Of a DNA stretch of 64,000 nucleotides, positions 13,935 to 60,898 are shown piece after piece. The notes under the pieces are model-generated. The model was given only the letters and a program-made list of their open reading frames with translations. It searched no databases and was not told where the DNA came from. Source of the DNA: Marinobacter sp. LQ44 (lineage in GTDB: Bacteria; Pseudomonadota; Gammaproteobacteria; Pseudomonadales; Oleiphilaceae); assembly GCF_001447155.2 (NCBI RefSeq), contig NZ_CP014754.1, positions 1 through 64,000 on the forward strand. Direction: 5' to 3'. Each line of letters opens with the position of its first letter. Position 1 is the first letter of the stretch. A program made the translations under genes and the position numbers.

Positions 13935-15023
13935 TCAGTTGTTGAGCGTGGTATACAGCAGGTTGGACATGCTGGTCTGGTTGGAGTTCGGGACCTCGAC
14001 ATACTGGTCACCGGAGCCCCAAAGTTGCCACCAGGCCCGCTGGTTGTAAGTGCGGCTGGCGAAGTCGATCTGTAAGCCATTGAGCACAGTGTTGTTCACC
14101 ACCGGCACAGAGATGTTGCCGGTCTGGGTATCCTTTACGGCACTGTGGTTGGCGCCTTCGCTCATCAGAATCGGGTAGTGATTGTAATAAAGGCCAGAAG
14201 GACCATTCTGCCCGCTTACCTTGCCCGCCAGACTGATACTGTTGGAGCACGAATCTATGCCGCTGGCGGTGGTGGCGCCGCAGGCGGAGTGGGTGGGTAC
14301 CACGCCGTCATCGGTGCCGGCAATGAAGGGTTTGGTGATTCCTCCGTAGGACGAACCGCCACCGACAAAGCGCAGCCGGGGAATAGCCGTGGGGCCTACC
14401 GACAGGTTGCGGGCGGTGTTGGTTTGCAGGTCATTGACCACGCCCAGGTTGTCGGGCTGTGGATCAATCCCGGTGAACGCACGCACAGCTTGTTTTACCG
14501 GCCAGTTATACCAGCTGTCGTTATAGGCAATGCTGACTGCCAGGTCGGCCAGTTCGGTACCGCCGCCAGCCCCCGCAAGATCCATGACCGCGAGGATTTT
14601 CAGCGGTTGCAGGCCTTCGGATTGCAGCCAGCGAGCCTGGTTCTCCAGGAGGTGGCGGGTAACCAGGTCACTGGTGGAATGGGTCACGACAATGCAGTAA
14701 TTGTTGCACAATCCCTGCTGACTGATTTGTCGAACCTGCTGGTAGGCTTGCTGCGCAATCTCGCCTTCCACCCGGCCGTTACTGGCCCAGTCGATGCGCG
14801 CTTCGGCGCGGTTCAGCCAGTAATCCCGCCAGTAGTCTTCTCCGGCCTGTTTCACCTCTTGCATGTTGGCGGGGGCCTGGGACAGGTTTTCCATCATGAA
14901 ACCGTGCACCAGGATCACATTGTGGCCCGCCAGTTGGGCCTGCGCCGTTGTGGCGAACAATCCGCCTGCCAGCGCTATCGATAATGCAGTTTTACTCAGG
15001 CATCTTTTGTTTTTGTTGATCAT
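13935..15023 (-). CDS. Secreted alpha/beta-hydrolase (lipase/esterase-like)
   Basis: Exported protein of 362 aa; the signal peptide ends near TAQAQ (residue 30). The alpha/beta-hydrolase fold is suggested by VILVHGF (oxyanion-hole region, 37-42), a nucleophile region VVTHSTSD with Ser116, a candidate acid in GTDDGVVP, and a candidate histidine in GANHSAVKD. The nucleophile elbow is THSTS instead of the canonical GxSxG, so both flanking glycines are replaced. This could mean altered specificity or loss of activity. The gene follows an Ig-like exported protein by 34 nt and is probably in the same transcript. No lipase foldase motif was found nearby. Confidence 0.75.
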   Translation of the reverse strand: MINKNKRCLSKTALSIALAGGLFATTAQAQLAGHNVILVHGFMMENLSQAPANMQEVKQAGEDYWRDYWLNRAEARIDWASNGRVEGEIAQQAYQQVRQISQQGLCNNYCIVVTHSTSDLVTRHLLENQARWLQSEGLQPLKILAVMDLAGAGGGTELADLAVSIAYNDSWYNWPVKQAVRAFTGIDPQPDNLGVVNDLQTNTARNLSVGPTAIPRLRFVGGGSSYGGITKPFIAGTDDGVVPTHSACGATTASGIDSCSNSISLAGKVSGQNGPSGLYYNHYPILMSEGANHSAVKDTQTGNISVPVVNNTVLNGLQIDFASRTYNQRAWWQLWGSGDQYVEVPNSNQTSMSNLLYTTLNN

Positions 15024-15057
15024 TGCTTGCTCCGTTTTCCGGTTTTATTGTTGTTTA

Positions 15058-16131
15058 TCAGAACTTGTCGGCCAGCTGCCTCAGCAACGCCGCCCGTTGC
15101 TCTGATTCTGTGTTCACCGCAGGTGTGTCACGCAGGTTGCCAAGATCCGGCGGTGAAAACTCATAGCCATCGTCTGGGCCGAAGGCGTAATGGGTGCGAT
15201 CGCCAGGGCGGTCCGGCATTTGGCGTAACTGCAGGTTTCGGAGTTGCAGCTGGCCTTCGATGTCCTGGTTCGCCAACACGCTGCCATGGGCCTTGAGCAC
15301 AAGCGTACCGCTGCCCCCGCTCAGGGATTCTTCAGTACTGAGTTGGGCCAGAGCGCGCTGGCCGTTGTATAGCTGGGCGGACAGCGCATAGTAGCCGGCG
15401 TGGTCCGGATCGAAACGGACTGGGATAACCAGGTCATTGCCGGACACGTAGGGTGAGTCGATACCACCGAAGTCGCCGAGATCAGGTTCAATGGAGAGAG
15501 ACGACACATGCCGGACCGGCTTTCCATCAACCCTGGCCTCTACAATCAGCCGGTATTCGCCTGGCTCATGATCGGAAGTGATCGTTCCCTGGTAGTAGCC
15601 GCTGTCTTCCGTGGCAGACAGGTCTGCTGAATCGGCCTTGCCCCTCTTGGTGGCCGACTCAAGTGTTGCCGAGAGGGTATCGCCGAACACCTGCCGGCCA
15701 CTCAGGGACGCCACCACAAGAATGGGCTCACCCTGGGTAAAGCGGAACTTGTCGAGTGTCACGATGAAGCGGCCGTCGTCTTCCAGTGGCAATTCAACCG
15801 GGTGGTACCGGTTACCCTGGTAAGCTTCGGCCTGGGCGGTGGTCAATGGTACCGAGTAGTCGGGGTAGCGGGCGCTTCGCTGGTAGTCGTCTGCAACGCT
15901 GGCGAGCATGAACCCCAGGGCGTTGTCAGAGGGAGCAGGCGCGACCGAACTGTTGACCTCACTCGTCGCTGGCGTGCTGCCGCCCGCCATGGCGCTTGCT
16001 TCCTGATGATCAGACTGGCTGCCGAAAGGCAGCCAACGGAACTTGCCGTCGTTATCTGCGGACAACAGCCACGCAGTACCTGAAATACTGGCCACCGCTA
16101 CGGCGGTAGCCATCAGTGTCTTGTAAGGCAT
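15058..16131 (-). CDS. Exported Ig-like/DUF4785-like protein, partner of the lipase-like gene
   Basis: A 357-aa protein with an N-terminal hydrophobic segment (residues 7-24) that acts as a signal or anchor, then a polar Ser/Ala/Pro linker to about residue 70. The rest is rich in beta-strands, with two apparent Ig-like modules (FTQGEPILVVASLSG and PYVSGNDLVIPVRF regions). It somewhat recalls DUF4785-type proteins, but I am not sure of that family. It does not contain the RxxFDY motif of lipase-specific foldases. Being just upstream of the lipase-like gene suggests a role in its folding, export or surface attachment, which is inference. Confidence 0.6.
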   Translation of the reverse strand: MPYKTLMATAVAVASISGTAWLLSADNDGKFRWLPFGSQSDHQEASAMAGGSTPATSEVNSSVAPAPSDNALGFMLASVADDYQRSARYPDYSVPLTTAQAEAYQGNRYHPVELPLEDDGRFIVTLDKFRFTQGEPILVVASLSGRQVFGDTLSATLESATKRGKADSADLSATEDSGYYQGTITSDHEPGEYRLIVEARVDGKPVRHVSSLSIEPDLGDFGGIDSPYVSGNDLVIPVRFDPDHAGYYALSAQLYNGQRALAQLSTEESLSGGSGTLVLKAHGSVLANQDIEGQLQLRNLQLRQMPDRPGDRTHYAFGPDDGYEFSPPDLGNLRDTPAVNTESEQRAALLRQLADKF

Positions 16132-16192
16132 GTAGAATCACCTTCTTATTGTTATTTCACTGCTTTTGGTTAAAGAGTAACCATAGCCAGTT

Positions 16193-16247
16193 TTGTCGTA
16201 ACCGGCATGAAAGTTGTCCGACAATGCGCCACTTTCACTCTAAAGTG
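16193..16247. promoter_or_regulatory. Inverted repeats upstream of the Ig-like/lipase genes
   Basis: Two dyads lie in the intergenic region before the Ig-like gene. CACTTT (16230-16235) and AAAGTG (16242-16247) form a perfect 6-bp dyad with a 6-bp spacer. TTGTCCGACAA at 16214-16224 is a near-perfect palindrome with a further TTGTCG at 16193. They could be operators; the regulator is unknown. Confidence 0.35.
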
Positions 16248-16267
16248 TGATAGACCTCACAATGGCA

Positions 16268-16858
16268 TTAGTCCTTGATCGCCTCAAAGGCAAAACGCAG
16301 TACTACCTCGTCACCGACCATGCCTTCGTCGATTCCGTAAGTCATACCCCAATCGCTTCGCTTGATCACGGCCGACGCACTGAGGCCGAGTGTGTATTCT
16401 TCGTGCCCGAAGGGATATACGTCAGCCTTGTTGAGGGTGACATCCACATCCACGGGGTTGGTCTTGCCCAGAAGCGTGAGATCGCCGGTGACGATGCCTG
16501 TGTTGTCTCCCGTGCGTTCGAAGCCGGTGACGGTAAAGGTGATGTCCTTGTGTCTTCTTGTGTCCAGGAAATCCTTGTTGCGCAGGTGATCATCCCGTTT
16601 ACCGTGATTGCTGAATACGCTGTTCGCCTTGAAGGCCAGTTCACCGGATGACAGCTCCCCGGTCTGTTCGTCATAGACGAATTCGCCTTTCACCTCGCGA
16701 AACATGCCCATGACCGGGGCGTAGCCGATGTGCATCACCTCAAAGACCATGGAGAAGTGCTCATCGTCCACCTGGAATCTGGTTGGTTGTGCCTGCAGCA
16801 GCGGCGCGGTGGAGAGCAGGGTGGCTGCCAGGGTTGCGGTGGCGAGTTTAGTTTTCAT
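16268..16858 (-). CDS. YceI-family periplasmic protein
   Basis: Predicted 196-aa exported protein with signal peptide MKTKLATATLAATLLSTAPLLQA and the YceI lipocalin-like barrel. This family binds isoprenoid or fatty amide ligands in an elongated cavity and is often induced by high pH or osmotic stress. Family-typical segments are FEVMHIGYAPVMGMF, KDFLDTRRHKDITF and GDLTLLGKTNPVDVDV. The frame is open 90 bases further upstream, but AAAGGAGA just before 16858 and the signal peptide fix the start. It overlaps the CDP-alcohol transferase gene by about 11 nt, so the two are co-transcribed. Confidence 0.9.
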   Translation of the reverse strand: MKTKLATATLAATLLSTAPLLQAQPTRFQVDDEHFSMVFEVMHIGYAPVMGMFREVKGEFVYDEQTGELSSGELAFKANSVFSNHGKRDDHLRNKDFLDTRRHKDITFTVTGFERTGDNTGIVTGDLTLLGKTNPVDVDVTLNKADVYPFGHEEYTLGLSASAVIKRSDWGMTYGIDEGMVGDEVVLRFAFEAIKD

Positions 16859-17582
16859 GATAGTGTCTCCTTTGGTAGAGCCAGCGAACATCCAGCGCAA
16901 ACGACCAACCCAGAAGGGCCAGTGCCATGGCCAGTGTGGTGCCGGCAAACCCGGTGGGGGTAAGAGGAAGTATGGCGATCATCAGCGTAACAATCTGCCA
17001 TACGCATACTGTTTTGCGCCGGAAACTGTCCGGCAGTGGTTGGTTGAGCCACGTCAGGAAATGGCTGGCGGCCAGAAAGCCATAGCGCATCAGGGCAAGC
17101 ATCAATACCCATGGCCCGGCTTTGCCGACAGCCATCGTGGCAACGCATAAGCCGAGGATAAACAGCGCATCCAGCTCCATGTCGAACCGGGCGCCGAATT
17201 CACTGTTGCTGTTGGTGGCCCGGGCCACCTTGCCATCCACGCCATCAAGGATCAGCGCAATGAGGCAGGCCACGGCGTAAATCCACAACGCGGAAGAATC
17301 GGCAGCGGACAGAAACGGCGCCCAGGCCACCAGGGAAACGACCAGGATGGATCGAAGCAGGGTAGTGCGGTTGGCCCAGCCAAAGTTTTGTCGGGCTGGC
17401 CAACGCGTAAGTATCAAGGCGCCCTGGGTGGCGAAGATCAGAATCGCCAGCAGACCGAACCAGCCGGGCGGGCTGAACCATTCGTGCACGGACAGCAACA
17501 CCAAAAACAGCAGTAGGGCAGCCCAACCAAGCTCCCTCACAGTGGCAGGAATCTGAAATGTTGCCGGGCGAATCGAATCCAT
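16848..17582 (-). CDS. CDP-alcohol phosphatidyltransferase family membrane protein
   Basis: Integral membrane enzyme of 244 aa. The full signature DGx2ARx8Gx3Dx3D is present at residues 116-138 (D116, G117, A120, R121, G130, D134, D138), so the metal-binding and catalytic residues are intact. The family transfers a phospho-group from a CDP-linked donor to an alcohol, usually making phospholipids such as PG, PS or PI. The alcohol acceptor here is unknown. The gene is divergent from the MDR dehydrogenase gene and sits at the edge of the PTPS/glycosyltransferase cluster. Confidence 0.88.
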   Translation of the reverse strand: MDSIRPATFQIPATVRELGWAALLLFLVLLSVHEWFSPPGWFGLLAILIFATQGALILTRWPARQNFGWANRTTLLRSILVVSLVAWAPFLSAADSSALWIYAVACLIALILDGVDGKVARATNSNSEFGARFDMELDALFILGLCVATMAVGKAGPWVLMLALMRYGFLAASHFLTWLNQPLPDSFRRKTVCVWQIVTLMIAILPLTPTGFAGTTLAMALALLGWSFALDVRWLYQRRHYHEN

Positions 17583-17693
17583 ATCCGAGCGTTTCCGTAT
17601 AGCCTGACTGGTACGTGTGTTAGGCCCCGTTCTATGACTATAGTTTGGGGTAGATGCTTTTGCTTACGGAGATAACAAGAGAATGGACTGTTT

Positions 17694-18677
17694 ATGACGT
17701 CATCAGGGAATCAGGCGTTCTGGGTGACTGGCCCGGGTCAGGGGGAACTTCGGCCGGCGACTCTGGAATGGCCTGAGAGTGCCGGGGGAGAGATCGTTAC
17801 CGTGCGCACGCTGTATTCCGGGATCAGCCGGGGCACGGAATCACTGGTATTTAACAATCGGGTTCCACAGGACGAATACCTTCGAATGCGCGCACCCTTT
17901 CAGGAGGGCCAGTTTCCGTTTCCGGTCAAATATGGCTATGCCAATGTTGGCGAAGTGCAGGACGGGCCAGAGCACCTCATGGGTAAGCGGGTCTTTTGCC
18001 TGTACCCCCACCAGAGGCACTACCGCGTGCCGGCCAGTGCCGTCACCGCACTGCCGGACGATCTGCCGCCGGGACGCGCCATTCTTGCTGCCAATATGGA
18101 AACCGCCATTAACGGGCTCTGGGATGCCGAGCCCGCTGTAGGTGACCGGGTTGCCGTGGTTGGCCTGGGGGTGGTCGGGCTTCTGGTGGCCTGGCTGGTC
18201 AAACAGATTCCCGGCACCCAGCTGCTGGCTGTCGATACCAATGAGTCCAGGGCTGACATTGCCAAAGCTTTGGGGCTTCCATTCACAACCGAGGCTTCGG
18301 CCCGTGATTGCGACCTGGTGATTCATGCATCCGGCCGGAGCGAGGGGTTGTCATCAGCCCTGTCCATGGCCGGGCCAGAAGCTCGCATTGTGGAGCTTAG
18401 CTGGTATGGCAACGAACCGGTCACGGTTCCCCTTGGCCATGCCTTTCATCCTAACCGCCTTGAACTTAAATCCAGCCAGGTAGGGCAGATTCCGCCGCAC
18501 AGGCAGCCCCGTTGGAGTTATGCACGGCGGCTTGAGCTTGCACTGCAGTTGCTCAGAGCGCCTGAGCTGGACAACCTGATCAGCGGTGAATCCCGGTTTG
18601 ACGAACTTCCTGCGGTTGCCAGCACCATATTGTCACCAGCAGGGGATGCGCTCTGCCATCGAATTACCTATTCCTGA
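17694..18677 (+). CDS. Zinc-less MDR dehydrogenase (BchC-like)
   Basis: Medium-chain dehydrogenase/reductase of 327 aa with a Rossmann motif VGLGVVGLLVA at about 157-167. The usual zinc-ligand Cys segment (GICGSD) is replaced by SGISRGTES, as in the BchC-like branch of the superfamily. The four structural-zinc cysteines are also absent, so it is probably a metal-independent NAD(P)(H) oxidoreductase. It begins a four-gene run (MDR, PTPS-fold, glycosyltransferase-methyltransferase, membrane protein) with short gaps or overlaps, implying a shared pathway. The substrate is unknown. Confidence 0.8.
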   Translation: MTSSGNQAFWVTGPGQGELRPATLEWPESAGGEIVTVRTLYSGISRGTESLVFNNRVPQDEYLRMRAPFQEGQFPFPVKYGYANVGEVQDGPEHLMGKRVFCLYPHQRHYRVPASAVTALPDDLPPGRAILAANMETAINGLWDAEPAVGDRVAVVGLGVVGLLVAWLVKQIPGTQLLAVDTNESRADIAKALGLPFTTEASARDCDLVIHASGRSEGLSSALSMAGPEARIVELSWYGNEPVTVPLGHAFHPNRLELKSSQVGQIPPHRQPRWSYARRLELALQLLRAPELDNLISGESRFDELPAVASTILSPAGDALCHRITYS

Positions 18678-18686
18678 GGAAACACT

Positions 18687-19085
18687 ATGTTCAGTTTGAC
18701 CGTTCGCGATCACATGATGATTGCTCACAGCTTTAAAGGAGAAATCTTTGGTCCGGCGCAAGGGCTTCATGGCGCCACCTACGTGGTAGACGTGACCTTC
18801 GAGCGACACGTGCTGGACGATAACGATTTGATTGTGGATATTGGCCAGGCGTCTGACCTGCTGAAAGAGGTCCTTTCGGAATTCAACATGAAGAACCTGG
18901 ACGACTTGCAGGAATTCAAAGGCCGGAACACCACCACGGAATTCATGGCGCAAGTTGTGTTCAATCGCATGGCTGCCGCCATTCATGCCGGCCGCCTTGG
19001 TGAAGAGGGCCGGCAGGTTGCCGGCCTTAAAGTGACTTTGGGCGAGTCGCACCTGGCCTGGGCCAGTTACCATGCCGGCATCTGA
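18687..19085 (+). CDS. 6-pyruvoyl-tetrahydropterin synthase/QueD-fold protein lacking the catalytic triad
   Basis: A 132-aa member of the PTPS/QueD superfamily, normally a zinc enzyme acting on dihydroneopterin triphosphate. Aligned by eye with E. coli QueD, the first zinc histidine (His14, in IAHSF) and the next (His28) are kept, but the HGH motif reads HGA (Ala30). The nucleophilic Cys four residues before it is Ala24. The LDH segment supplying the catalytic Asp and His reads F66-N67-M68. The pterin-anchoring glutamate remains (E120, in LGESHLAW). It may bind a pterin or related ring but should not carry out the standard reaction. It begins 9 nt after the MDR gene and overlaps the next gene by 14 nt. 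Confidence 0.85.
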   Translation: MFSLTVRDHMMIAHSFKGEIFGPAQGLHGATYVVDVTFERHVLDDNDLIVDIGQASDLLKEVLSEFNMKNLDDLQEFKGRNTTTEFMAQVVFNRMAAAIHAGRLGEEGRQVAGLKVTLGESHLAWASYHAGI

Positions 19086-21003
19086 TCTATGGTTTGTGGT
19101 TCCCGGTGATCCTGACCAGAACACCGGTGGGTACCGATATGTGCAGCGCCTGGTGGCGGCATCGCGCCAGGCGGGGGTAAACGCGCGGGTTCAGGGGCTT
19201 GCTGGGTGCTTTCCGAGACCGGATCAAACTGCTACCAATGCCATGCAAGAGTTCCTGACGTCTCTGCCGGACAACACGTTAGTGGTGCTTGACGGGCTTG
19301 CCATGGGGGCCATGCCAGACGTGCTGGAGCGCCACGGCACACGCTTGCGGCTTGTGGCGCTGGTACACCATCCGCTGGCGGATGAGACCGGACTATCCCA
19401 GGAGCAACTGGCCTGGTTTCGGGAAGCTGAAAGGCAATCCCTGGCCCAGGTCGGCAGGGTGGTCACGACCAGTGAGTACACTGCCCACCGCGTGCAACAG
19501 GAGTATGGTGTGCCGTCCTGGAAGATTACGACGGCGCAGCCGGCCGTGGACGCCCTGTTCTTCCAGATGGAGCGCGACCACTTGGACAAGCCCATGAGGC
19601 TCTTGTGTGTGGGGCATCTATCCCCCCGGAAGGTGCAGCACCAACTGGTCGATGCCCTCGCCACTTTGCGGGAACTGCCGTGGCAATGCACCCTGGTGGG
19701 GGCGGAGGATCGTGATCCGGACTATGCGCTGGCCCTTCGCAGTGCCATCGCCCGGCACGGACTGGCTGATCGTATTCAGCTTCTTGGAGAGCTATCGGAA
19801 CCCGCGCTGGAGGAGGCCTACCGCCGGGCGGATCTGTTCGTGTTTCCGTCGCTCTACGAAGGCTATGGCATGGTCATCGATGAAGCCCTGGCCGCGGGCT
19901 TGCCGGTGTTGTCTTCCGATGGCGGCGCGCTGGCGTTGACCACCAGCAAACCCGGAGCCCGGAATTTTCCGGCTGGCAATGCGAAGGTCCTGGCGTCAGA
20001 ACTTCGCAATCTCCTGACGAATACCGCAGATTTTTCGGATCTGGCGCGACGTGCGCGGGCCCATCGGTCAGATATTCGCCAGTGGTCAGATACCACAAGG
20101 GAATTCCTCGGCAGTCTGGGCATCAGCGTTGAGGGTGATCCTGCAAGATTCTCTGGCCAGTGGCTGGAAGCCCGGGAGCCCGCGGATCATGCTGCCAGAA
20201 GCCGGGCCTTGACGGATACGCTGGCAAACTGGCTAACCGTGGAATACAACACGAAAGCCGCCGGAAAACCGGCCGGTGATCCGTTGCATCTGGTGGACAT
20301 AGGCAGTGGGCGGGGTTCTAACCCCGGTTATCTGATTCCCCGTTTGCCGGTCCCCCAGCGGTGGACATTGATTGAACCGGATCAGCATCTGCTGGGGCTG
20401 GCCTGCCATCGGGTTGAGGCCCTGGATGCCCCGGCGGTTCCCCTGATGCGAGAGCTAACCCCGCACAACCTGGATGAGCTATTGCCAGACGATGCCGCCC
20501 TGGTCACGGCATCGGCCCTGATTGACCTGGTCTCAGAACACTGGCTTCGTGCCTTTTCCAGTGCCGTGGTGCGAAGGCGGGCGGGTGTTCTGGTAGTGAT
20601 TAGCTACAGCGGGCACTTTGACCTGGCGCCTTCCCATGCCTCCGACGCCCTGGTACAGGAGCTGGTGAATCAGCACCAGCATGGCGATAAAGGCAGCGGA
20701 GCGGCATTGGGTCCCGAAGCAACCGGGGTTTTGGAGAAACTGCTGCGTGAGGCAGGTTATACCGTCACGGTAGAGCAGAGCCAATGGCATCTCAGCCCGG
20801 GCCAGGGCGGCACGAGTGCTGAGTTGATCACCATGCTAATGACGGGTTGGGCGGATGCCGCCTGCCAGCAGAACCCGGCTGCGGAGGCTGAGATCAGAAC
20901 CTGGCTGGCAGACAGGCAGGATCAGTTGGCCCGTCACGAACTGCGGGTGGTGGTTGATCACCTGGACCTACTTGGGTTACCCGACTCAGGTTTGCCGGCA
21001 TGA
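19072..21003 (+). CDS. Glycosyltransferase (GT4) fused to a SAM methyltransferase
   Basis: A 643-aa two-domain protein. Residues 1 to about 360 form a GT-B glycosyltransferase of family 4: donor-site segment LCVGHLSPRKVQHQLVDAL and the EX7E region EGYGMVIDEAL near 262-272. Residues about 400-600 carry a Rossmann methyltransferase with motif I LVDIGSGRGSNPGYL near 404-418 and an acidic motif II region (LIEPDQHLL). No signal peptide or membrane segment is seen. The start overlaps the PTPS-fold gene, and its stop overlaps the next start (ATGA-type), showing tight translational coupling. The fusion implies that the same small molecule is glycosylated and methylated. Confidence 0.85.
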   Translation: MPASDLWFVVPGDPDQNTGGYRYVQRLVAASRQAGVNARVQGLAGCFPRPDQTATNAMQEFLTSLPDNTLVVLDGLAMGAMPDVLERHGTRLRLVALVHHPLADETGLSQEQLAWFREAERQSLAQVGRVVTTSEYTAHRVQQEYGVPSWKITTAQPAVDALFFQMERDHLDKPMRLLCVGHLSPRKVQHQLVDALATLRELPWQCTLVGAEDRDPDYALALRSAIARHGLADRIQLLGELSEPALEEAYRRADLFVFPSLYEGYGMVIDEALAAGLPVLSSDGGALALTTSKPGARNFPAGNAKVLASELRNLLTNTADFSDLARRARAHRSDIRQWSDTTREFLGSLGISVEGDPARFSGQWLEAREPADHAARSRALTDTLANWLTVEYNTKAAGKPAGDPLHLVDIGSGRGSNPGYLIPRLPVPQRWTLIEPDQHLLGLACHRVEALDAPAVPLMRELTPHNLDELLPDDAALVTASALIDLVSEHWLRAFSSAVVRRRAGVLVVISYSGHFDLAPSHASDALVQELVNQHQHGDKGSGAALGPEATGVLEKLLREAGYTVTVEQSQWHLSPGQGGTSAELITMLMTGWADAACQQNPAAEAEIRTWLADRQDQLARHELRVVVDHLDLLGLPDSGLPA

Positions 21004-21962
21004 TGCGCCAGCGGCCATGGCCAAAGCTGCTGCTTCGGTGGGCTGCGACCCTTATTATCCTGGTGCTGGTGTTACGGTTTGTGGACCTGTCCGGTCTGAT
21101 AGCCAGGCTCCGATCCATATCGCCCTCACTGATCGCCCTGGCCCTGGCGGTTTCCATCTTCCAGGTGGTGCTGTCCGCCTGGCGTTGGCGTTATACCGCC
21201 GGCAGGCTGGGTGTTTCGGTGCCGATGACCTTTGCCGTTCGGGAATATTACCTGGCCACTTTTCTGAACCAGGTGCTGCCGGGTGGTGTTATGGGGGATG
21301 TGAACCGTGCCTGGAGGCACAGCCGGGCGCAAGGGCAGCGAGCCCCTGAGCGTTCGGGGCAGCTTTCGGCAGTTCATGCGGTAGTCCTTGAACGGTTGTC
21401 CGGGCAGTTGGTGTTGTTCCCGGTGGTCTTGCTCGCCGTGGTTGCGCTCTGGAGTGCCGGGGCTTTCAGTGGGCAGCGGGTAGCGGCGCAATTATCCTTG
21501 AACCCGGTCTACTGGCTGTTGCCTCCTCTGCTGGTTGGCGTTGGTATCTGGCTGTTGTGGGTTAGTGGTCGGCTTGCCTCACTGCGGCGATACCTTGGGC
21601 GCCTGGGTGCCGATCTCAGGCGGGCATTTGCTGGCTGGCGCAATGGTTCGGTGCAGTTGTTTACTTCCCTTGCCGTTCTGGGCACCTATTTGACGGTGTT
21701 TGTGTTGTTGGCGTTGGGTATGGGCCTGGCGACCGATGCCAGCAGTCTGTTTCTGACCGCTGCCCTGTGTCTGTTATTGCTTCTGGCGATGGTGGTGCCG
21801 ATTACGGTGTCTGGCTGGGGTGTCCGTGAAGGCGCAGCAGCCCTGCTTTGGCCCGCGGTTGGGTTACCGGCAGAGCAGGGGGTGGCGATCAGTATTGGCT
21901 ACGGTGCGTTGATATTCCTGGCCAGCTGGCCGGGGGCGCTGGTGCTTCTCAAACGCGCCTGA
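21000..21962 (+). CDS. LPG-synthase-TM/flippase-like membrane protein
   Basis: Integral membrane protein of 320 aa with about eight hydrophobic helices, in the lysylphosphatidylglycerol synthase TM (UPF0104/AglD-like) family. Typical segments are LNQVLPGGVMGDVNRAW (residues 82-98) and ITVSGWGVREGAAALLW near 269-285. Relatives act as lipid or glycolipid flippases or work with polyisoprenoid-linked sugars. Coupling to the GT-methyltransferase suggests handling of its lipid-linked product, which is inference. It converges with no gap on the RibD-like gene. Confidence 0.82.
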   Translation: MMRQRPWPKLLLRWAATLIILVLVLRFVDLSGLIARLRSISPSLIALALAVSIFQVVLSAWRWRYTAGRLGVSVPMTFAVREYYLATFLNQVLPGGVMGDVNRAWRHSRAQGQRAPERSGQLSAVHAVVLERLSGQLVLFPVVLLAVVALWSAGAFSGQRVAAQLSLNPVYWLLPPLLVGVGIWLLWVSGRLASLRRYLGRLGADLRRAFAGWRNGSVQLFTSLAVLGTYLTVFVLLALGMGLATDASSLFLTAALCLLLLLAMVVPITVSGWGVREGAAALLWPAVGLPAEQGVAISIGYGALIFLASWPGALVLLKRA

Positions 21963-22829
21963 TCAATTCCAGCGCCTCTCGAAGGCCAGGTCGAACAGCA
22001 TGTCACTGCCCAGATTGACCAGCTGGGCCCGCGGGCGCAGGGCATCATCCAGTTGGTCGATTTCCGGCAGTGAGAATGCCGGCCGCCCACTGCCGATGAT
22101 CATCGGAGCCACCATGACATGCAGTCTGTCTAGCAGCCCTGCTTTGAGGAAGGATGAAACGGTTACACCGCCGCCCTCAATAAAGATTTTGCGAAGTCCG
22201 TAGTCCTGTAATACTTGAAGAATATGCTCCGGTGGCACCGGTGAAGGGTCGTCGGCAGCCCCGAGACAGGGAATAGTGGTTACCTGGCCGATGCGGGCGG
22301 GCTTTTGGGCCGGGTCGTATTCACCGGCAACCAGATGCAGTGTGGGTGCTGCGTTGTCGGTAAACAGGTGGTGGCTGCGGGGCACCCGGTTATGGCGATC
22401 AATCACCACCCGTACCGGGTTGGGCCCGTTGGCACGGCGAACCGTCAGCCTTGGGTTGTCAGTGGCAGCGGTGCCGGCACCGACCACCACCGCATCGCAC
22501 AGGGCGCGAATGCGGTGCAGGTGGGTAATGCCATCGTCGCCGTTGATAAACCGGGAACAGCCGGTCACTGTGGCAATGCGGCCGTCCAGGCTCTGACCAA
22601 GCTGACCAATCACATGGTTACCCGCCGGGCGCCTGATGGGCTGGCACAGGGGCAGGAAAAGCGATATCAGATTCCTGGCATCTTCGGTTGCCTGATGCAC
22701 CAACTCCCAGCTTTTGCCGTTAATCCGCAGCGCGGGTTGGCTGGTTCCCGGCAGGGGAAGGGTGACATTGCTGCGGTTGCTGGCATTCAGTATGAGCTTC
22801 CAGGCAGTGTCTGTATCCAGGGTGGCCAT
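21963..22829 (-). CDS. RibD C-terminal-type reductase (DHFR fold), stand-alone
   Basis: A 288-aa protein carrying a RibD-type pyrimidine/pterin reductase domain without the N-terminal deaminase. Motifs include GQLGQSLDGRIATVTG, INGDDGITHLHRIRALCDAVVVGAGTAATDNPRLTVR-like organisation and FIEGGGVTVSSFL in the NADPH-binding part. The first 80 residues are not recognised. The family reduces the ribosyl group of a pyrimidine riboflavin precursor, and relatives reduce pterins or folates. Standing next to a PTPS-fold protein, a related heterocycle is a plausible substrate, but this is inference. It is convergent with the membrane-protein gene. Confidence 0.82.
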   Translation of the reverse strand: MATLDTDTAWKLILNASNRSNVTLPLPGTSQPALRINGKSWELVHQATEDARNLISLFLPLCQPIRRPAGNHVIGQLGQSLDGRIATVTGCSRFINGDDGITHLHRIRALCDAVVVGAGTAATDNPRLTVRRANGPNPVRVVIDRHNRVPRSHHLFTDNAAPTLHLVAGEYDPAQKPARIGQVTTIPCLGAADDPSPVPPEHILQVLQDYGLRKIFIEGGGVTVSSFLKAGLLDRLHVMVAPMIIGSGRPAFSLPEIDQLDDALRPRAQLVNLGSDMLFDLAFERRWN

Positions 22830-22948
22830 GGCGTTCCCGTTTGTTGGTTTTGTGGTTTCAGTATAAGCAGATTGTGTGCAAAGCTATATGTACGATACAT
22901 TTCCGGATTGATTCACTTTTCCAGCCAATTTTTCAGGGACACTGAGCT

Positions 22949-23365
22949 ATGCGGTACCTGCAGTCCTTTCATCGCCGCTTGCGGCAACTCCGGCAGACCG
23001 GGCAGCTGTCTTTGGCGGATGTGGCTAATATGTGCGGTGTGGACGAAGCCCGGGTAGGCAGCTGGGAGGCCACAGATCCCAAGCAGCGGAGCTATCCGGG
23101 TGTCAGTGAGCTGCTGGATGTGTGTCTGAAAACCGAAACGCCGTTGGATCAACTGCTGGATATGGATGATGGCGGTGACAGCGGTCAGCTGGAGTTGCCG
23201 GGGCTGGCGTTCAGTAACAGCGATGATTTGTCTGTAGCGTTGAAAGAGCTGGAACGGGAGCTGAACCGATTGCAGCTATCAGAGGAAGAGTTGGAACTGC
23301 TGCGCCGGTTCCGCAAGGCAACCGCGGAAAACCGGCGCATGGTCCTTCAGCTGCTGGGGCGTTAA
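22949..23365 (+). CDS. Small XRE-like HTH protein
   Basis: A 138-aa protein whose N-terminal 65 residues resemble an XRE/Cro helix-turn-helix (LADVANMCGVDEARVGSWE). An acidic linker follows, then a C-terminal helical segment (about 90-138) likely to form a short coiled coil (LKELERELNRLQLSEEELELLRRF region). It could be a DNA-binding regulator. No membrane segment is present. It lies between the divergent RibD-like gene and the convergent galU; its targets are unknown. Confidence 0.7.
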   Translation: MRYLQSFHRRLRQLRQTGQLSLADVANMCGVDEARVGSWEATDPKQRSYPGVSELLDVCLKTETPLDQLLDMDDGGDSGQLELPGLAFSNSDDLSVALKELERELNRLQLSEEELELLRRFRKATAENRRMVLQLLGR

Positions 23366-23383
23366 CCGCCCCGGTAAGCCAGG

Positions 23384-24220
23384 TTACTTGCCTTTTTTGT
23401 AGATATTCTCGTAAACGTAGTTGGTGGCTTCCACAAAGCCGTCGATGCTGCCGCAGTCAAAGCGCTGGCCCTTGAACTGGTACGCCAGCACACAACCGTT
23501 CTTCGCCTGTTCCAGCAGGGCATCGGTAATCTGGACCTCGCCGTTCTTGCCAGGAGAGGTGCTTTCGATAATATCGAAGATATCCGGTGTCAGGATGTAC
23601 CGGCCAATGATGGCGAGGTTGCTGGGTGCGTCCTCCGGAGCTGGCTTTTCCACCATGTCGGTAATTCGGTACAGGCCGTCTTTCATGGACTCGCCGGCAA
23701 TCACACCGTATTTGTGGGTTTCATCCTGCGGCACTTCTTCGATGGCCACGATGGAGCAGCGGAACTGGTTGTACAGTTTCACCATCTGCGCCAGAACACC
23801 ATCCCCGCCTTCCGGCCCCACACAGAAGTCATCAGCCAGCACCACCGCGAACGGGTTGTCACCCACCAGGTTGCGGCCAGTCAGAATGGCATGCCCCAAG
23901 CCTTTCATCTCGTTCTGACGGGTGAAAGCAAAGGTGTTGTTGGTGATCAGGTCGCGAATGGAGGTTAGCAGGCCTTCTTTTCCGGTTCCGGCAATCTGGT
24001 GTTCCAACTCGTAGCTGATGTCGAAGTGATCCTCGATGGCACGCTTGCCACGGCCGGTTACGAAACCGAACTCGTGGATTCCGGCTTCGGCAGCTTCCTC
24101 TACGCCGTACTGAACCAGCGGCTTGTTAACGATCGGCAGGATCTCTTTCGGCATGGCCTTGGTGGCAGGGAGAAAGCGGGTGCCGTAGCCGGCTACCGGG
24201 AAAAGGCACTTTTTGATCAT
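23384..24220 (-). CDS. galU: UTP-glucose-1-phosphate uridylyltransferase GalU
   Basis: Makes UDP-glucose from UTP and glucose-1-phosphate, feeding exopolysaccharide, periplasmic glucan and lipopolysaccharide synthesis. The 278-aa product begins MIKKCLFPVAGYGTRFLPATK, with the nucleotide-binding GxGTRxxPxTK motif and KEILPIVNKP. The frame stays open to 24406, adding about 60 unrelated residues. However, AAGGA lies close upstream of 24220 and the family start is at MIKK, so the shorter form is chosen. It neighbours opgGH, which use UDP-glucose. Confidence 0.96.
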   Translation of the reverse strand: MIKKCLFPVAGYGTRFLPATKAMPKEILPIVNKPLVQYGVEEAAEAGIHEFGFVTGRGKRAIEDHFDISYELEHQIAGTGKEGLLTSIRDLITNNTFAFTRQNEMKGLGHAILTGRNLVGDNPFAVVLADDFCVGPEGGDGVLAQMVKLYNQFRCSIVAIEEVPQDETHKYGVIAGESMKDGLYRITDMVEKPAPEDAPSNLAIIGRYILTPDIFDIIESTSPGKNGEVQITDALLEQAKNGCVLAYQFKGQRFDCGSIDGFVEATNYVYENIYKKGK

Positions 24221-24537: not shown

Positions 24538-25746
24538 ATGGCACATCCGCTGGTCGCAAAACGGCACGGCCCTCAACTGAGCTCCATTGCACTGTTTTCG
24601 TGCGCACTGGCTGTATTTTCGGTGCAGGGGGGTGCCAGCGAGCTTTCACTCTCCGAGCAGAATGCTCTCAGCACCCAGGAAGCCCTGTTTGCTCAGGACC
24701 GTTTGAAAGCCACCCGCGAGCATTGGCTACGGTCGAAATTCGAGTTTTCAGGACGTACCAACGACGATTCAGATCGCCTTGACGGCACGCTGAACCTTGG
24801 GTTGAAGAATATGTTCGGTGAAAGTCATCGGGCTGATCTTCGATACGCGGACTCCAAGACTTATCGAGTCAGTAACGAGCGCAAGGTCCTTGGGTTTGGC
24901 TATGGCTTGCCGGTGGGGCTCAACCAGCTGAGAATGGAGCTGACCAACACCGCCTATGATGAAGTGTCGAGGGTTGAGGGGGCCCGCTATCAGAAGGCCG
25001 GCCGAATTCGCGACGTGGCCGTAACCGGAAGCCGGCCGCTGTTCTCCGTCAGCGGTTACAGTATCCGGGGGCGGGCAGGGTATAACTCTGTAACCCGTTC
25101 GTGGACCCGGCAGAGCGATGAAAACCACAGAAATCACTACGAGGTATCCACCCTGGGCTTTGAAGCCCTGGGGCGCCATGACCTGGTGGGCGGCTTCAGT
25201 CTCTCCAGTGGATTCAGGGCTGTCACTGGCATTGAGGCAGAGGCGGAACGCACGGCGGTTGGTTATCAGGATTCCCAGGACGATCAGTTCGGGCGAATGT
25301 TGTTTACGGCGTCCCTGGACCGGGAAATGCTGGACTGGCAATGGGATCTTGAAGGGCAATATCAAATTGCTTCTGCGGACATTCCCGGATCTCACCGTCT
25401 GCAGGTTGCTGGCTCAGCGCTTTCGACGGGTTTTAGCGGCCAATCCCTGAGTGTGGCGGAGGGTGGCTGGCTGCGGCTCGGTAGCCGCAGCCCCACCTTT
25501 AACGTGCCGTTTTTCCCCCAAATGCTGTCCAGTGTCAGGCTGTCGGTGCTGCGGGGCTGGGTTCCCGACGTATCGTTCCAGCAGGACCAGTCGGGCCATG
25601 TCACCTCCGGGGAGCTGTCCCTCGGCCTTTCTGCCCGCAAGTTCAGTGCCGATGTCAGCGTTGGCCGGGTACTTGGAACAACCACCGAAGCCATTGTTGT
25701 TCCGGACCACCCGGATGTGCGGCTTTCCATGAGCTTAAAAATATAG
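24538..25746 (+). CDS. ShlB/TpsB-like outer-membrane barrel without POTRA domains
   Basis: Exported protein of 402 aa. The signal peptide spans residues 16-34 (LSSIALFSCALAVFSVQGGA). From about residue 65 the sequence consists of amphipathic strands resembling the ShlB hemolysin-secretion barrel (DGTLNLGLKNMFGESHRADLRY, FGYGLPVGLNQLRMEL, then ARYQKAGRIRDVAVTGSRPLF). The POTRA domains of real two-partner transporters are absent, as is a recognisable VRGF motif of the constriction loop, and the protein ends in LSMSLKI rather than a clear C-terminal Phe. No TpsA partner is adjacent. It precedes opgG by 90 nt, so a role in exporting or anchoring periplasmic glucan is possible but speculative. Confidence 0.65.
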   Translation: MAHPLVAKRHGPQLSSIALFSCALAVFSVQGGASELSLSEQNALSTQEALFAQDRLKATREHWLRSKFEFSGRTNDDSDRLDGTLNLGLKNMFGESHRADLRYADSKTYRVSNERKVLGFGYGLPVGLNQLRMELTNTAYDEVSRVEGARYQKAGRIRDVAVTGSRPLFSVSGYSIRGRAGYNSVTRSWTRQSDENHRNHYEVSTLGFEALGRHDLVGGFSLSSGFRAVTGIEAEAERTAVGYQDSQDDQFGRMLFTASLDREMLDWQWDLEGQYQIASADIPGSHRLQVAGSALSTGFSGQSLSVAEGGWLRLGSRSPTFNVPFFPQMLSSVRLSVLRGWVPDVSFQQDQSGHVTSGELSLGLSARKFSADVSVGRVLGTTTEAIVVPDHPDVRLSMSLKI

Positions 25747-50974: not shown

Positions 50975-52420
50975 ATGAATAATTCGCTAGCATCTTTAAT
51001 CTCGAAAGGACGGGCAATTAGCGGGGCAAGCTTTTTGATGGCAGCTAGCTTAGCAGCCATCACAACTTCAGTAATGGCAGCCCCGACACTTTCAGGGATC
51101 GATACAGGCACCGCCAGTGAGCTTCGTTCTGGAAACTCAATAACGATAACCGGTTCGGGTTTTGGACGGAAAGAGCAAGGCGCTCCAGTTCTTTTCGATC
51201 ATACGGACGTAACCTGGGAAAATGGAGTCGCCAATAAGTACCAATCTACATTCAACGACATGACGCTAGTAAAACGAGTGAATGTGGATCCCAATACAAT
51301 TTGGACGAAGCCATCACTGCCGGAGGAGCATAGCACCGGAATACTGGTCACCAATTCCAGACCAACTAGGGATGGTAATCCTGGTTCACACTATTACGGG
51401 AAGGGTAATGTGAACTTTTTGGGTTGGCCGAAAGCCAGTGGAGGGGAGAATACAAACTTTGAGTCCACAAAGATGTATTCTGCTTTCTGGATAAAGTTGC
51501 CTTACGACCTTACTAATTATTATGCGATTCCTGCGGAGAAGAAACCATCCGCCTTTGCTACGGGTGGACCAGAAAGTTACGGCGAGTCCATTAAAATTGA
51601 GGGAGTGGATGGCCTGGGAAGGGTAATATCATACGAGGATATTGGTTCGCTCCCTAATGGTTGGCTATTCATTGAGCCACCAAGAGGCGTTTCGATAAAG
51701 GATCTGACTGGTAAGCGGATTGTAGGGCTTGAATCTGGCGCTGAGGTTGTTTTCCCTGAGTCATCCTCACTGGGGAAATTCGATCAGTACGGGTTTCTGT
51801 CTCCCAGGGGGAAATATGCCCGGTTCTGGTCGGATCCGGAAGGTACCGGTTACCGTTTCTCTCTAGCCAATTTGGGACTGTCCGGAACTGGGGCGCCAAT
51901 CTGGACAAATCGCTTTGGAAGTCTTTCTCCTGAGACGGGAAAGTGGAACCTATTTGAGATTGAGATCGATCTTGGCGAGGCTCCCACATTGACTGCGTGG
52001 TTAAACGGGCACGTATACTTAGCAAGCGAGAGCAGCTGGGCTGAAGCAATACTAAGCTCCTCTGTAAATGACACAGCAGGATTAACTATTGCTCTGTTAG
52101 GAATTGATGATTTTATGCCAGTCCCATTCACAGTGGAGTTGGATGATATTTATCTGGATAAAAGCTTACAGAGAGTACTTTTATGCAACAAGGCAACTAT
52201 TGAAGAGGTGCGCAATAGAGGTGCTCATTGTGAGGTTCAGCGACCTGTCTCATGGAGCGACCGGAAGATATCTTTTGATCTTAATTTAGGTTCCTTTAAT
52301 AAAGAAAAAGATAGTGCTTATCTATATGTGTTTGACGCTAATGGAGATGTGAATGTCAAAGGTTGGGAGCTGAGTAAAGTGAACGCACCGTTACCTCCAC
52401 AGGACTTTCAAGCGAAGTAA
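50975..52420 (+). CDS. Unknown secreted beta-rich protein in the exopolysaccharide locus
   Basis: A 481-aa exported protein; the signal peptide covers residues 1-35 (SLAAITTSVMAAP). Residues about 37-100 resemble an IPT/TIG-like Ig module (SITITGSGFGRKEQGAPVLF). The remainder is beta-rich with aromatic residues and a lectin-like look (concanavalin/LamG fold), but no enzyme motif is seen. There is no PEP-CTERM tail. GGGGGAG precedes the ATG. The 274-nt region before it (50701-50974) is AT-rich, probably its promoter, with no other signal recognised. It may bind or modify the polymer. Confidence 0.6.
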   Translation: MNNSLASLISKGRAISGASFLMAASLAAITTSVMAAPTLSGIDTGTASELRSGNSITITGSGFGRKEQGAPVLFDHTDVTWENGVANKYQSTFNDMTLVKRVNVDPNTIWTKPSLPEEHSTGILVTNSRPTRDGNPGSHYYGKGNVNFLGWPKASGGENTNFESTKMYSAFWIKLPYDLTNYYAIPAEKKPSAFATGGPESYGESIKIEGVDGLGRVISYEDIGSLPNGWLFIEPPRGVSIKDLTGKRIVGLESGAEVVFPESSSLGKFDQYGFLSPRGKYARFWSDPEGTGYRFSLANLGLSGTGAPIWTNRFGSLSPETGKWNLFEIEIDLGEAPTLTAWLNGHVYLASESSWAEAILSSSVNDTAGLTIALLGIDDFMPVPFTVELDDIYLDKSLQRVLLCNKATIEEVRNRGAHCEVQRPVSWSDRKISFDLNLGSFNKEKDSAYLYVFDANGDVNVKGWELSKVNAPLPPQDFQAK

Positions 52421-52489
52421 ATTTATGCTCCTTTAATAGATTTCATGTTTAAAGGATTTTTAATAAATAGATTATAAGTGAGCTTTTAG

Positions 52490-53758
52490 ATGACAAGGAA
52501 GTTAAAGAGGGAGGTGATTAACCTCGCCCGTGAGTCAGGTCTTTCCGGATGGCGGTTTCTAGTTCGTTCGTTGTGGCATCGTGCTGTCAGTGGACTAGGG
52601 GCGAGCGCCGATATAAAGCTTGAGAACCTTGCGGGAATATTGTCGCATTTCCCCGCGAATTGCCTTCATAAACGCCAGTTATCGGAGGCACTTATCTTGG
52701 CGGGTTTGGCTAATAGCTCTGTGAAGGGAACGACACCCGTCTCGCTGAGTTACTGTGTTGTTTTAAAACCTTATAGATCGGGTTCAGAGAAAGGTGTGTT
52801 GCTTGTCTCTTTTGAAAACCAGTTGGCGCAGTTGTTAGACTCTGGGAAAATTGAAACGATTATGGATCGTTACTATATTGCGTTTATCCCCTCTTGGAGC
52901 GGATTGTATTCCAGAGAATTATTCCGTTTAGTTTCTGCTGCAGGAAGAAACCCAATATTTGTGATGCCAGTTCATAGTCATGAACGCAATGGATTCTCAA
53001 TACTTGGTGAAAATTGTTATTCACTGCCATTCAACGCAGCCAGTTGGGTTAATCCTGAGTTCTTTGAAGGGCCAGCTCAGAAAAGAGATATTGATTGCCT
53101 GATGGTTGCCAACTTCGCCAGTTTCAAAAGGCACTGGCTGTTATTTAAGGCATTAAAGGAGTTGCCTGAGGATATCCGGGTAACATGTGTTGGCGTTCCT
53201 TTGGGTTCCCGAACCGCTGAGAGCATTCGTCAGGAGGCAGCGGAATACGGGGTATCTGATCAGGTAACGATCGTGGTGGATCCTAGCCAGGAAGAGCTGA
53301 GGCGATATTTTCGAAGGGCAAAGATGTTCTGTGCGATGTCTTACCGCGAGGGGTCGTTTATTGCCGTTGCGGAGTCTTTGATGTCTGGCACGCCTGTGCT
53401 TATGTTTCGCAATGCACATATTGGTACAAAGAGCCTCATCAATGAAAAGACGGGCGGACTGGTGAAGTCTGTCAGGGAGTTACGGAAGAAAATACTGGAG
53501 TACAGGAACTTTGAAGGGCACGATCAGGTTCGTCAGACTGCGATAGATAATATCAGTGCACAGGCTAATTCCCGTAAACTTAACGATATGCTCCGGGACT
53601 GGTCAATCAACAATGGAAAGGCCTGGACGGTTGATATAGAGCCATTCTACAGCCAGCGACTCGACTTTCATTATTTTAATGATGAAAGTCGTGATCGTCT
53701 GGCTGATGATTACAGGTATTTATCCGAGTTAGGTATCTGGTTTCCGAGGTTCTCTTAA
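52490..53758 (+). CDS. GT4-like glycosyltransferase
   Basis: A 422-aa protein. The C-terminal half has the GT-B donor fold with MVANFASFKRHWLLFKAL and the acidic segment YREGSFIAVAESLMSGTPVLMF near 283-304. The N-terminal half is less typical and basic, without signal peptide or helix. It is the first in a run of tightly packed genes to 58208. Confidence 0.78.
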   Translation: MTRKLKREVINLARESGLSGWRFLVRSLWHRAVSGLGASADIKLENLAGILSHFPANCLHKRQLSEALILAGLANSSVKGTTPVSLSYCVVLKPYRSGSEKGVLLVSFENQLAQLLDSGKIETIMDRYYIAFIPSWSGLYSRELFRLVSAAGRNPIFVMPVHSHERNGFSILGENCYSLPFNAASWVNPEFFEGPAQKRDIDCLMVANFASFKRHWLLFKALKELPEDIRVTCVGVPLGSRTAESIRQEAAEYGVSDQVTIVVDPSQEELRRYFRRAKMFCAMSYREGSFIAVAESLMSGTPVLMFRNAHIGTKSLINEKTGGLVKSVRELRKKILEYRNFEGHDQVRQTAIDNISAQANSRKLNDMLRDWSINNGKAWTVDIEPFYSQRLDFHYFNDESRDRLADDYRYLSELGIWFPRFS

Positions 53759-53762
53759 TTTC

Positions 53763-54674
53763 ATGCCCTCCAGGAATAGTGTTGTGCCGTCTTCATCCAA
53801 TGAATTGGTTTCCGTAATCATCCCTTCCTATAATCGTGCAGCCTATATTGAGGCTGCCATTAACTCTGCGCTTGACCAGACTTACGGTCCGGTTGAGGTT
53901 ATTGTCGTGGATGATGGATCGACGGACGGCAGTTACGAAAAGTTACAACAATGGGCAGAACGAGGAGAACTGGTACTTCTGACTCACCCTGAGCGAAGGA
54001 ATCGGGGCCAGTCTGCATCGATTAATCTTGGTATTCAGCAAGCGACCGGTAGCTATATAGCAATCCTAGACAGTGATGACATGTTCGCCAAAGAAAAACT
54101 GGCAGATCAAATGTCGTTCCTGAAAGCTAACCCCGAAACAGGTATGGTTTATGGCCAAGGTCATGCAGTAGATGCTGATGGTAATTTCCTGTTCAAAGTT
54201 CCTGGTGATGGTCATCAGGAACTGAGTGATCCTAACCGGCTACTGCTAGATTGTTACATGGCGCTGCCGGGGGGATCGCTTGTTCGTCGTTCGGTATTTG
54301 AGAAAGCGGGCTTATTTGAGGAGTCTTTTAGGGCTGGCCAGGATCACGATATGGCTATTCGGATCATGGAAGCGACTAAATGCGCTTATTTGCCGAAACT
54401 TGCTTTCTATTACCGCAAACACGACGACTCCATCAGTGTTAAAGGGCTCGAACGTCGCTGGCTTACTGGGCTGGAAATTCTTCGCCGTGCTAATGAACGG
54501 TATCCCTACATGAGAAGCACGATTCGAAAACGCAAAGCGGTGCTTCAATTCAGATTAGGGCAGACCTATTGGCGAGAAAGGCGCAAGGCCAAAGCGTTAC
54601 CGCATCTTATCTCTTCAGGTTTACTTGACCCCACCCGTGCATTGATGGTTCTGATGGGGCGAGAGCAGGTGTAA
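53763..54674 (+). CDS. GT2-family glycosyltransferase
   Basis: A 303-aa GT-A enzyme: VSVIIPSYNRAAYIEAAINSAL near residue 17, VDDGSTDGS near 46-54, then the metal-binding DSDDMFA at about 102. No membrane helices, so it probably acts at the cytoplasmic face. It begins 4 nt after the preceding gene and its stop overlaps the next start by one base. The first 15 residues (MPSRNSVVPSSSNELV) are unusually polar, so the true start could be later. Confidence 0.88.
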   Translation: MPSRNSVVPSSSNELVSVIIPSYNRAAYIEAAINSALDQTYGPVEVIVVDDGSTDGSYEKLQQWAERGELVLLTHPERRNRGQSASINLGIQQATGSYIAILDSDDMFAKEKLADQMSFLKANPETGMVYGQGHAVDADGNFLFKVPGDGHQELSDPNRLLLDCYMALPGGSLVRRSVFEKAGLFEESFRAGQDHDMAIRIMEATKCAYLPKLAFYYRKHDDSISVKGLERRWLTGLEILRRANERYPYMRSTIRKRKAVLQFRLGQTYWRERRKAKALPHLISSGLLDPTRALMVLMGREQV

Positions 54675-55795: not shown

Positions 55796-55801
55796 TGCAG
55801 T

Positions 55802-58208: not shown

Positions 58209-58259
58209 TACGGAACGCGAGATTAAGGACGACTTAATGAAATCATGGATGTTTAACGT

Positions 58260-60895: not shown

Positions 60896-60898
60896 CGG

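Follow-up and report, generated by a model that had tools for sequence, protein, structure and literature searches.

Seven genes at positions 16268–22829 of a 64,000-nucleotide (nt) stretch of the Marinobacter sp. LQ44 genome (contig NZ_CP014754.1, positions 1 to 64,000; the whole stretch is hereafter called the window) form one unit, composed of two divergent operons, one for a CDP-alcohol phosphatidyltransferase and a YceI-family protein and the other for an MDR-family dehydrogenase, a PTPS-fold protein, a glycosyltransferase-methyltransferase (GT-MT) fusion, and an LPG_synthase_TM membrane protein (LPG_TM), together with a convergent gene for a RibD_C reductase domain. The unit represents a real and widely conserved orphan pathway around PTPS-IV, a known subfamily, and its seven genes probably serve a small molecule that would be made from guanosine-5′-triphosphate (GTP), glycosylated and methylated, and brought to or across the membrane. 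The features are as follows.

16268–16858, minus strand: YceI-family protein (PF04264, 131.3 bits), with an ATG start at 16858 behind AAAGGAGA
16848–17582, minus strand: CDP-alcohol phosphatidyltransferase (PF01066, CDP-OH_P_transf, 64.4 bits)
17583–17693, no strand: intergenic space of 111 bp between the divergent operons
17694–18677, plus strand: MDR-family dehydrogenase lacking the zinc Cys motif (ADH_zinc_N, 21.8 bits; Pfam cut-off 31.8)
18687–19085, plus strand: PTPS-IV (T-fold) protein (PF01242, 80.7 bits)
19072–21003, plus strand: fusion protein of 643 amino acids, with a GT4 glycosyltransferase as the N-terminal half (Glycos_transf_1, 87.8 bits) and a predicted class I S-adenosylmethionine (SAM) methyltransferase as the C-terminal half
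21000–21962, plus strand: LPG_TM (flippase-like) membrane protein (PF03706, 144 bits)
21963–22829, minus strand: stand-alone RibD_C reductase domain (PF01872, 138.2 bits)

Six of these genes had been named in a preliminary description of the window, and all six are open frames at the coordinates listed and belong to the families assigned there, the MDR match lying below the Pfam cut-off. The tight packing of the plus-strand genes at 17694–21962 is likewise confirmed, with a 9-nt gap between MDR and PTPS and overlaps of 14 nt between PTPS and GT and of 4 nt between GT and LPG_TM; the RibD_C gene abuts the LPG_TM gene tail to tail, and the CDP-alcohol transferase gene overlaps at its end with the minus-strand YceI gene. 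The 111-bp space is likely the site of both promoters; a sigma-70 promoter scan of 16100–23500 returned zero sites.

Inheritance within the genus was followed genome by genome for five genes (MDR, GT-MT, CDP-alcohol transferase, RibD_C, and YceI) and in the fetched loci for PTPS and LPG_TM; genomes and loci are cited below by G and L numbers. An MDR orthologue (56–93% identity) is present in 22 of 36 same-genus genomes and absent from the other 14, and none was found in the 21 same-order genomes searched. For the five genes searched one by one, the distribution in the genus is all-or-none: none of the other four genes occurs in the 14 non-carriers, and among the 22 carriers the CDP-alcohol transferase and the YceI copy of the cluster (52–97% identity) are found in all, GT-MT in 21 (the exception being G033, where the locus lies at a contig end), and RibD_C in 20 (the exceptions being G033 and G035, also with loci at contig ends). 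Non-carriers possess at most a different YceI copy with approximately 30% identity. Among the 20 loci fetched from the genus, 18 have all seven genes in an identical order, LPG_TM being seen in the same number, and the other two loci (L035 and L052) are cut by contig ends.

Loci around a helix-turn-helix (HTH) gene were fetched for 12 of the 14 non-carriers, and both flanks of the cluster are kept in four of them. Three of these are empty sites (L200, L206, and L209) with approximately 280–300 bp between the flanks and zero cluster genes, and the fourth holds a lone PTPS-IV gene at the cluster site (L202:7049–7444), an open frame in which M11, G22, P23, and G29, all invariant in both PTPS alignments, are changed; this single case is read as a decaying relic. 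The HTH gene itself (22949–23365) was considered as the regulator of the unit and rejected, as it occurs in 13 of the 14 non-carriers at 50–74% identity, adjoins galU in the 12 fetched non-carrier loci, and occurs irrespective of the cluster. The gene distribution, the empty sites, and the independence of the HTH gene therefore delimit the unit to 16268–22829; of the limits 16848–22829 proposed in the preliminary description, the end at RibD_C is retained, and the start is shifted so that the YceI gene (16268–16858) is included. Mirror-tree correlations between the cluster genes (0.57–0.94) were set aside as evidence because shared descent alone yields such values. Genes flanking the cluster in the window are up to 90–93% identical to those of a Marinobacter contig (L111). 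A viral origin was rejected, no relative of the window MDR having been found on viral contigs in a search for close relatives only. In L043 (G036), several genes of the cluster are fragmented, and the matches to the CDP-alcohol transferase and to GT-MT contain in-frame stops, owing to sequencing errors or decay.

Conservation of the gene neighbourhood beyond the genus, proposed in the preliminary description as a check, is evident, since the same core recurs in Halomonadaceae, Burkholderiales, Rhizobium, actinomycetes, Gemmatimonadota, and haloarchaea. Matches to the MDR alignment with an E value of 1e-40 or lower occur in 21 of 369 sampled gammaproteobacterial genomes, including that of the window, and the other 20 loci contain PTPS (18), GT (18), RibD_C (17), CDP-alcohol transferase (15), LPG_TM (11), and YceI (8). 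Partial loci comprise only MDR and CDP-alcohol transferase (L079) or only MDR and RibD_C (L092), and three genomes of approximately 1 Mb (G199, G311, and G407; loci L089, L088, and L087) keep all seven functions. A scan of genome contigs with the PTPS alignment A3 matched at least 595 stretches, of which at least 586 were confirmed and 80 were kept, 61 of these at full length; the kept loci include Marinobacter, Halomonas, Salinicola, Kushneria, Variovorax, Streptomyces, Micromonospora, Actinoplanes, and Gemmatimonadota. In all 80 kept loci (80 of at least 586), MDR lies on the same strand within 300 bp of PTPS, and these 80 further contain CDP-alcohol transferase (70), LPG_TM (59), RibD_C (56), RibA (44), creatininase (42), and YceI (33). 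Counts by class, given here and below, refer to 86 loci of at least 18 kb (the 20 fetched same-genus loci being left out), including 59 proteobacterial, 21 actinobacterial, and 4 haloarchaeal loci. CDP-alcohol transferase occurs in 50, 19, and 3 of these, respectively, and YceI in 30, 1, and 0. Plasmid versions of the cluster are found in Rhizobium, Methylosinus, Thiodictyon, Streptomyces, Microbacterium, and haloarchaea, and two alpha- or gammaproteobacterial plasmid versions carry cytochrome b561-type genes (L097:12497–13054 and L099:13003–13542).

The window PTPS protein is assigned to PTPS-IV on the basis of its FGPAQ signature and of the neighbours PF00925 and PF01872, of which RibD_C is linked in the window and PF00925 is unlinked in this genome and linked in relatives. 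FGPA is present in 120 of 121 relatives and the complete FGPAQ in 114. Ala24 and Ala30 replace the catalytic Cys and the third zinc His, and Glu120 is retained; all three residues are invariant in alignments A1 and A3, so the replacement is fixed and is not decay. The motif of the window protein and of A1 is AxxxHGA, and the CxxxHGH and CxxxxxHGH motifs of PTPS-I (QueD) and PTPS-II are not found; the QueD model scores 45.0 bits against a cut-off of 89.25. A classic PTPS or QueD function was rejected on motif and score. The sole relative in the PDB at E 0.001 by sequence is SCO6650 of Streptomyces coelicolor (3d7j, E 1.4e-46), the structure of which presumably lacks zinc and the catalytic triad. 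The catalytic alteration noted in the preliminary description thus stands, and its novelty does not, as PTPS-IV is known, has a solved relative, and has a partly published neighbourhood. Most annotated records seen label PTPS-IV proteins as 6-carboxytetrahydropterin synthase, and no published reaction for PTPS-IV was found in the open literature searched. A second type of cluster has the PTPS motif GAENxxHxHxY (L090:7667–10413, L093:7004–9717, and L091:2928–5047), and the genome of the window contains a second weak PTPS-family match (G000:C1:4241837–4242106, L002; 26.3 bits) in a frame of 303 amino acids.

The other cluster proteins similarly keep or lack the motifs of their families. The dehydrogenase had been described as zinc-less, and indeed, of 130 relatives, none shows the zinc Cys pattern and all show the nucleotide-binding glycine motif; the best NCBIfam match of the window MDR is BchC (53.7 bits), far under the BchC cut-off. 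In the 643-amino-acid protein, the methyltransferase half alone has no Pfam match, and three scanned stand-alone relatives match Methyltransf_25 above the cut-off. An AlphaFold2 model of this half (alignment A4, 27 rows; mean predicted local distance difference test score 93.3) matches class I SAM methyltransferases (3mgg, E 3.5e-12), and the C-terminal half is accordingly assigned, from the predicted structure, to this class with its Rossmann-type fold; the previously described GT-MT fusion is upheld by this model and by the Glycos_transf_1 match of the N-terminal half. A glycine-rich SAM motif, in a pattern of our own, is found in 75 of 125 members, and the GT4 motif pattern in 88 of 114 relatives. 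Among 130 loci, GT and MT are fused in 41, MT is separate in 76, and 13 gave no match; these counts were taken from single-half BLAST because the GT4 and MT profiles cross-match and fused proteins are among the seeds and hits. The motif DGx2ARx8Gx3Dx3D, presumably the catalytic motif of CDP-alcohol phosphatidyltransferases, is present in 111 of 112 relatives. RibD_C scores below the cut-offs of both equivalogs, at nearly equal values (archaeal reductase, 116.5 against a cut-off of 186.45; bacterial RibD, 114.9 against 156.35), and the genome of the window (G000) has two RibD_C copies, i.e., that of the cluster and that of the housekeeping RibD (C1:3325266).

The entry point of the pathway is indicated by the cyclohydrolases of related loci. 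A search for co-occurring GTP cyclohydrolase genes, also proposed in the preliminary description, gave a positive result in many relatives, the enzyme being of type II or IIa. Cyclohydrolase II is encoded in 8 of the 20 non-genus gammaproteobacterial loci; in L090 and L093 it forms one protein with RibD_C, and in L092 the two genes are neighbours. By class, it occurs in 30 of 59 proteobacterial and 19 of 21 actinobacterial loci. Two of the four haloarchaeal loci have GTP cyclohydrolase IIa next to MDR. Creatininase-family genes often accompany the locus cyclohydrolase. Their products match Pfam creatininase, with best NCBIfam matches to MftE and creatininase under the cut-off, and by analogy may serve as ArfB/BrbF-type formamidases where needed. 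In cyclohydrolase II, one site is occupied by Tyr or Met, Met being tied to the formylated product. Among actinobacterial loci, creatininase accompanies all 13 RibA proteins with Met (10) or His (3) at this site (L147, L153, L158, L159, L162, L170, L172–L174, L181, L183, L184, and L100) and none of the six of Tyr type (L154, L161, L163, L164, L168, and L176), counts that are uncorrected for descent; the distribution of RibD_C is reversed (1 of 13 and 6 of 6, respectively). L152 and L155, left out by the 18-kb rule, agree, both having Met and creatininase. The stand-alone RibA of the window genome is of Tyr type (L197), which fits a direct supply of the diamino compound; creatininase has no match in this genome and none above the cut-off in 35 same-genus genomes, G010 giving a weak match. 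The formamidase reaction is exemplified by BrbF, a creatininase-family enzyme of Sinorhizobium, which removes the formyl group from the formylamino intermediate and so yields the diamino compound (PMC9478397).

The preferred reading, considered moderately probable, is that a GTP-derived diaminopyrimidine is remodelled by the zinc-less MDR and PTPS-IV, receives a sugar and a methyl substituent, and is either attached to the membrane or flipped across it. Briefly, the housekeeping GTP cyclohydrolase II of the host, or often a locus-borne cyclohydrolase in relatives, would provide the diaminopyrimidine ribosyl-phosphate that occurs in riboflavin synthesis; RibD_C would reduce this or a later compound; PTPS-IV and the MDR dehydrogenase would remodel the ring or side chain; sugar transfer would fall to GT4 and methylation to the SAM enzyme; the CDP-alcohol transferase would couple a phospho-lipid or phospho-alcohol; and LPG_TM and YceI would carry the amphiphile outward. 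YceI is a probable periplasmic carrier of the product, its mostly proteobacterial distribution suiting an amphiphile that needs to cross the periplasm. We infer each reaction, the reaction order, and the product from the observed co-inheritance, family memberships, kept and lost motifs, and cyclohydrolase linkage. The preliminary description had proposed a glycosylated, methylated heterocycle or a lipid-linked derivative; the conserved unit and its glycosyl, methyl, and membrane functions are borne out, and the product and reactions retain a conditional standing.

Several observations weigh against the preferred reading. No linked cyclohydrolase is found in the locus of the window or in the genus loci, and a dedicated second cyclohydrolase in the genus is not supported, since each of the four carriers and four non-carriers tested has two PF00925 genes. 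G311 carries the cluster and has no PF00925 match in an assembly that is 96% complete, which speaks against the model unless the assembly lacks the gene. The pairing of creatininase with Met/His-type RibA is not general: of 29 proteobacterial loci in which a Tyr-type RibA could be read, 24 contain creatininase as well. Only one of the 13 actinobacterial loci whose RibA is of Met/His type has RibD_C, all four haloarchaeal loci lack it, and among the 59 proteobacterial loci YceI is absent from 29 and LPG_TM from 20. Furthermore, solitary PTPS-IV genes occur on Streptomyces plasmids (L094:9001–9426 and L101:9001–9399) near genes for MEKHLA-domain, cupin, and BTAD-regulator proteins, the rest of the cluster not lying beside them.

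Cyclohydrolase I passes through the diaminopyrimidine ribosyl-phosphate, and its zinc serves the formyl step, not ring closure. The cluster could accordingly encode a split GTP cyclohydrolase I, in which type II or IIa enzymes, with a formamidase where present, would make the diaminopyrimidine ribosyl-phosphate and PTPS-IV would perform the Amadori rearrangement and ring closure only; the resulting pterin would be reduced by RibD_C, which has a dihydrofolate reductase (DHFR) fold, then given a sugar and a methyl substituent and anchored to a membrane lipid. This possibility is rather unlikely; it would account for a T-fold protein that keeps the ring-anchoring Glu after losing both zinc and Cys, and for the dispensability of RibD_C in some loci, and, if true, it would mean that pterins can be made in a new way. 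A branch off riboflavin metabolism, in which RibA and RibD_C provide a ribityl-pyrimidine or a lumazine or flavin derivative that is glycosylated and exported in soluble form, the lipid-type genes serving transport only, is favoured by the fusion or adjacency of RibA and RibD_C in L090, L093, and L092 and by the motif DxPxLTxR, taken here to be the RibD substrate motif, in 83 of 96 RibD_C relatives. However, RibD_C is absent from 13 of 21 actinobacterial and all haloarchaeal loci, and the CDP-alcohol transferase, widespread in all three groups, points to a coupled phospho-group, so the side branch is judged unlikely.

A classical pterin glycoside would arise from GTP cyclohydrolase I via dihydroneopterin triphosphate, which a PTPS-type enzyme and a reductase would convert to a biopterin-like pterin for decoration by GT and MT. 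The PTPS fold with its ring-anchoring Glu, the dehydrogenase, the DHFR-fold reductase family, and the sugar and methyl transfer all agree with such a product, whereas the locus cyclohydrolase of relatives is of type II or IIa (FolE was not searched for) and PTPS-IV lacks the catalytic Cys and one zinc ligand of PTPS and QueD, rendering this route quite improbable. The cyanobacterial pterin glycosides resemble the proposed product in concept, as glycosylated and methylated rings derived from GTP, and differ in cyclohydrolase type, PTPS type, and membrane genes; the likeness suggested in the preliminary description is therefore not established, the linked cyclohydrolase being of type II or IIa and not of type I. 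Actinomycetes and haloarchaea use cofactor F420, and some PTPS-IV carriers belong to these groups. Participation of PTPS-IV and its neighbours in F420 synthesis, a role given to PTPS-IV in a 2016 review that cites unpublished work (PMC5041015), is nevertheless very improbable. CofH (TIGR03551), the sole F420 gene tested, is above the cut-off in 1 of 42 cluster genomes (G067 only), comprising the genome of the window (20.6 against 374.1 bits), 21 same-genus carriers, and 20 others, with actinobacterial and archaeal carriers left out; for this host, the F420 reading is rejected on CofH alone and is largely refuted.

The cluster overlaps with known systems in part. The FGPAQ signature is common to the window protein and to the PTPS-IV of COG0720, which includes SCO6650 (PMC5041015; PMC5445326). 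One of these accounts reports PF00925 and RibD_C as neighbours of PTPS-IV across 561 sequences, and its section 19 names only these two and not MDR, GT, MT, CDP-alcohol transferase, LPG_TM, YceI, or creatininase (PMC5445326); there, PF00925 is called a type I (FolE2) enzyme, the Pfam name being GTP cyclohydrolase II. The early steps of riboflavin synthesis (cyclohydrolase II or archaeal ArfA, the formamidase ArfB/BrbF, and the RibD reductase; PMC9478397), involve the same families that stand together in the loci of relatives, whereas the cluster gene sets extend to PTPS-IV, MDR, GT, MT, and membrane genes, and the genome of the window has separate housekeeping RibD and RibBA elsewhere. An account of the whole cluster was not found in the one open-access library searched, a result that applies to this library only. 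PTPS-IV proteins are common, and the conservation of the set in proteobacteria, actinomycetes, haloarchaea, and genomes of approximately 1 Mb suggests a small molecule that is valuable to the cell. Which metabolite or lipid depends on the block is a directly testable question, given the sharp boundaries of the unit, the naturally empty sites, and the entry from GTP.

Elsewhere in the window, the flank at 13935–16131 putatively encodes a lipase/esterase and a lipase chaperone. The frame at 24538–25746 gives a ShlB/FhaC-type match barely above the Pfam cut-off (30.7 against 22.7 bits), and 50975–63872 holds a long series of tightly packed plus-strand frames of 300–640 amino acids.

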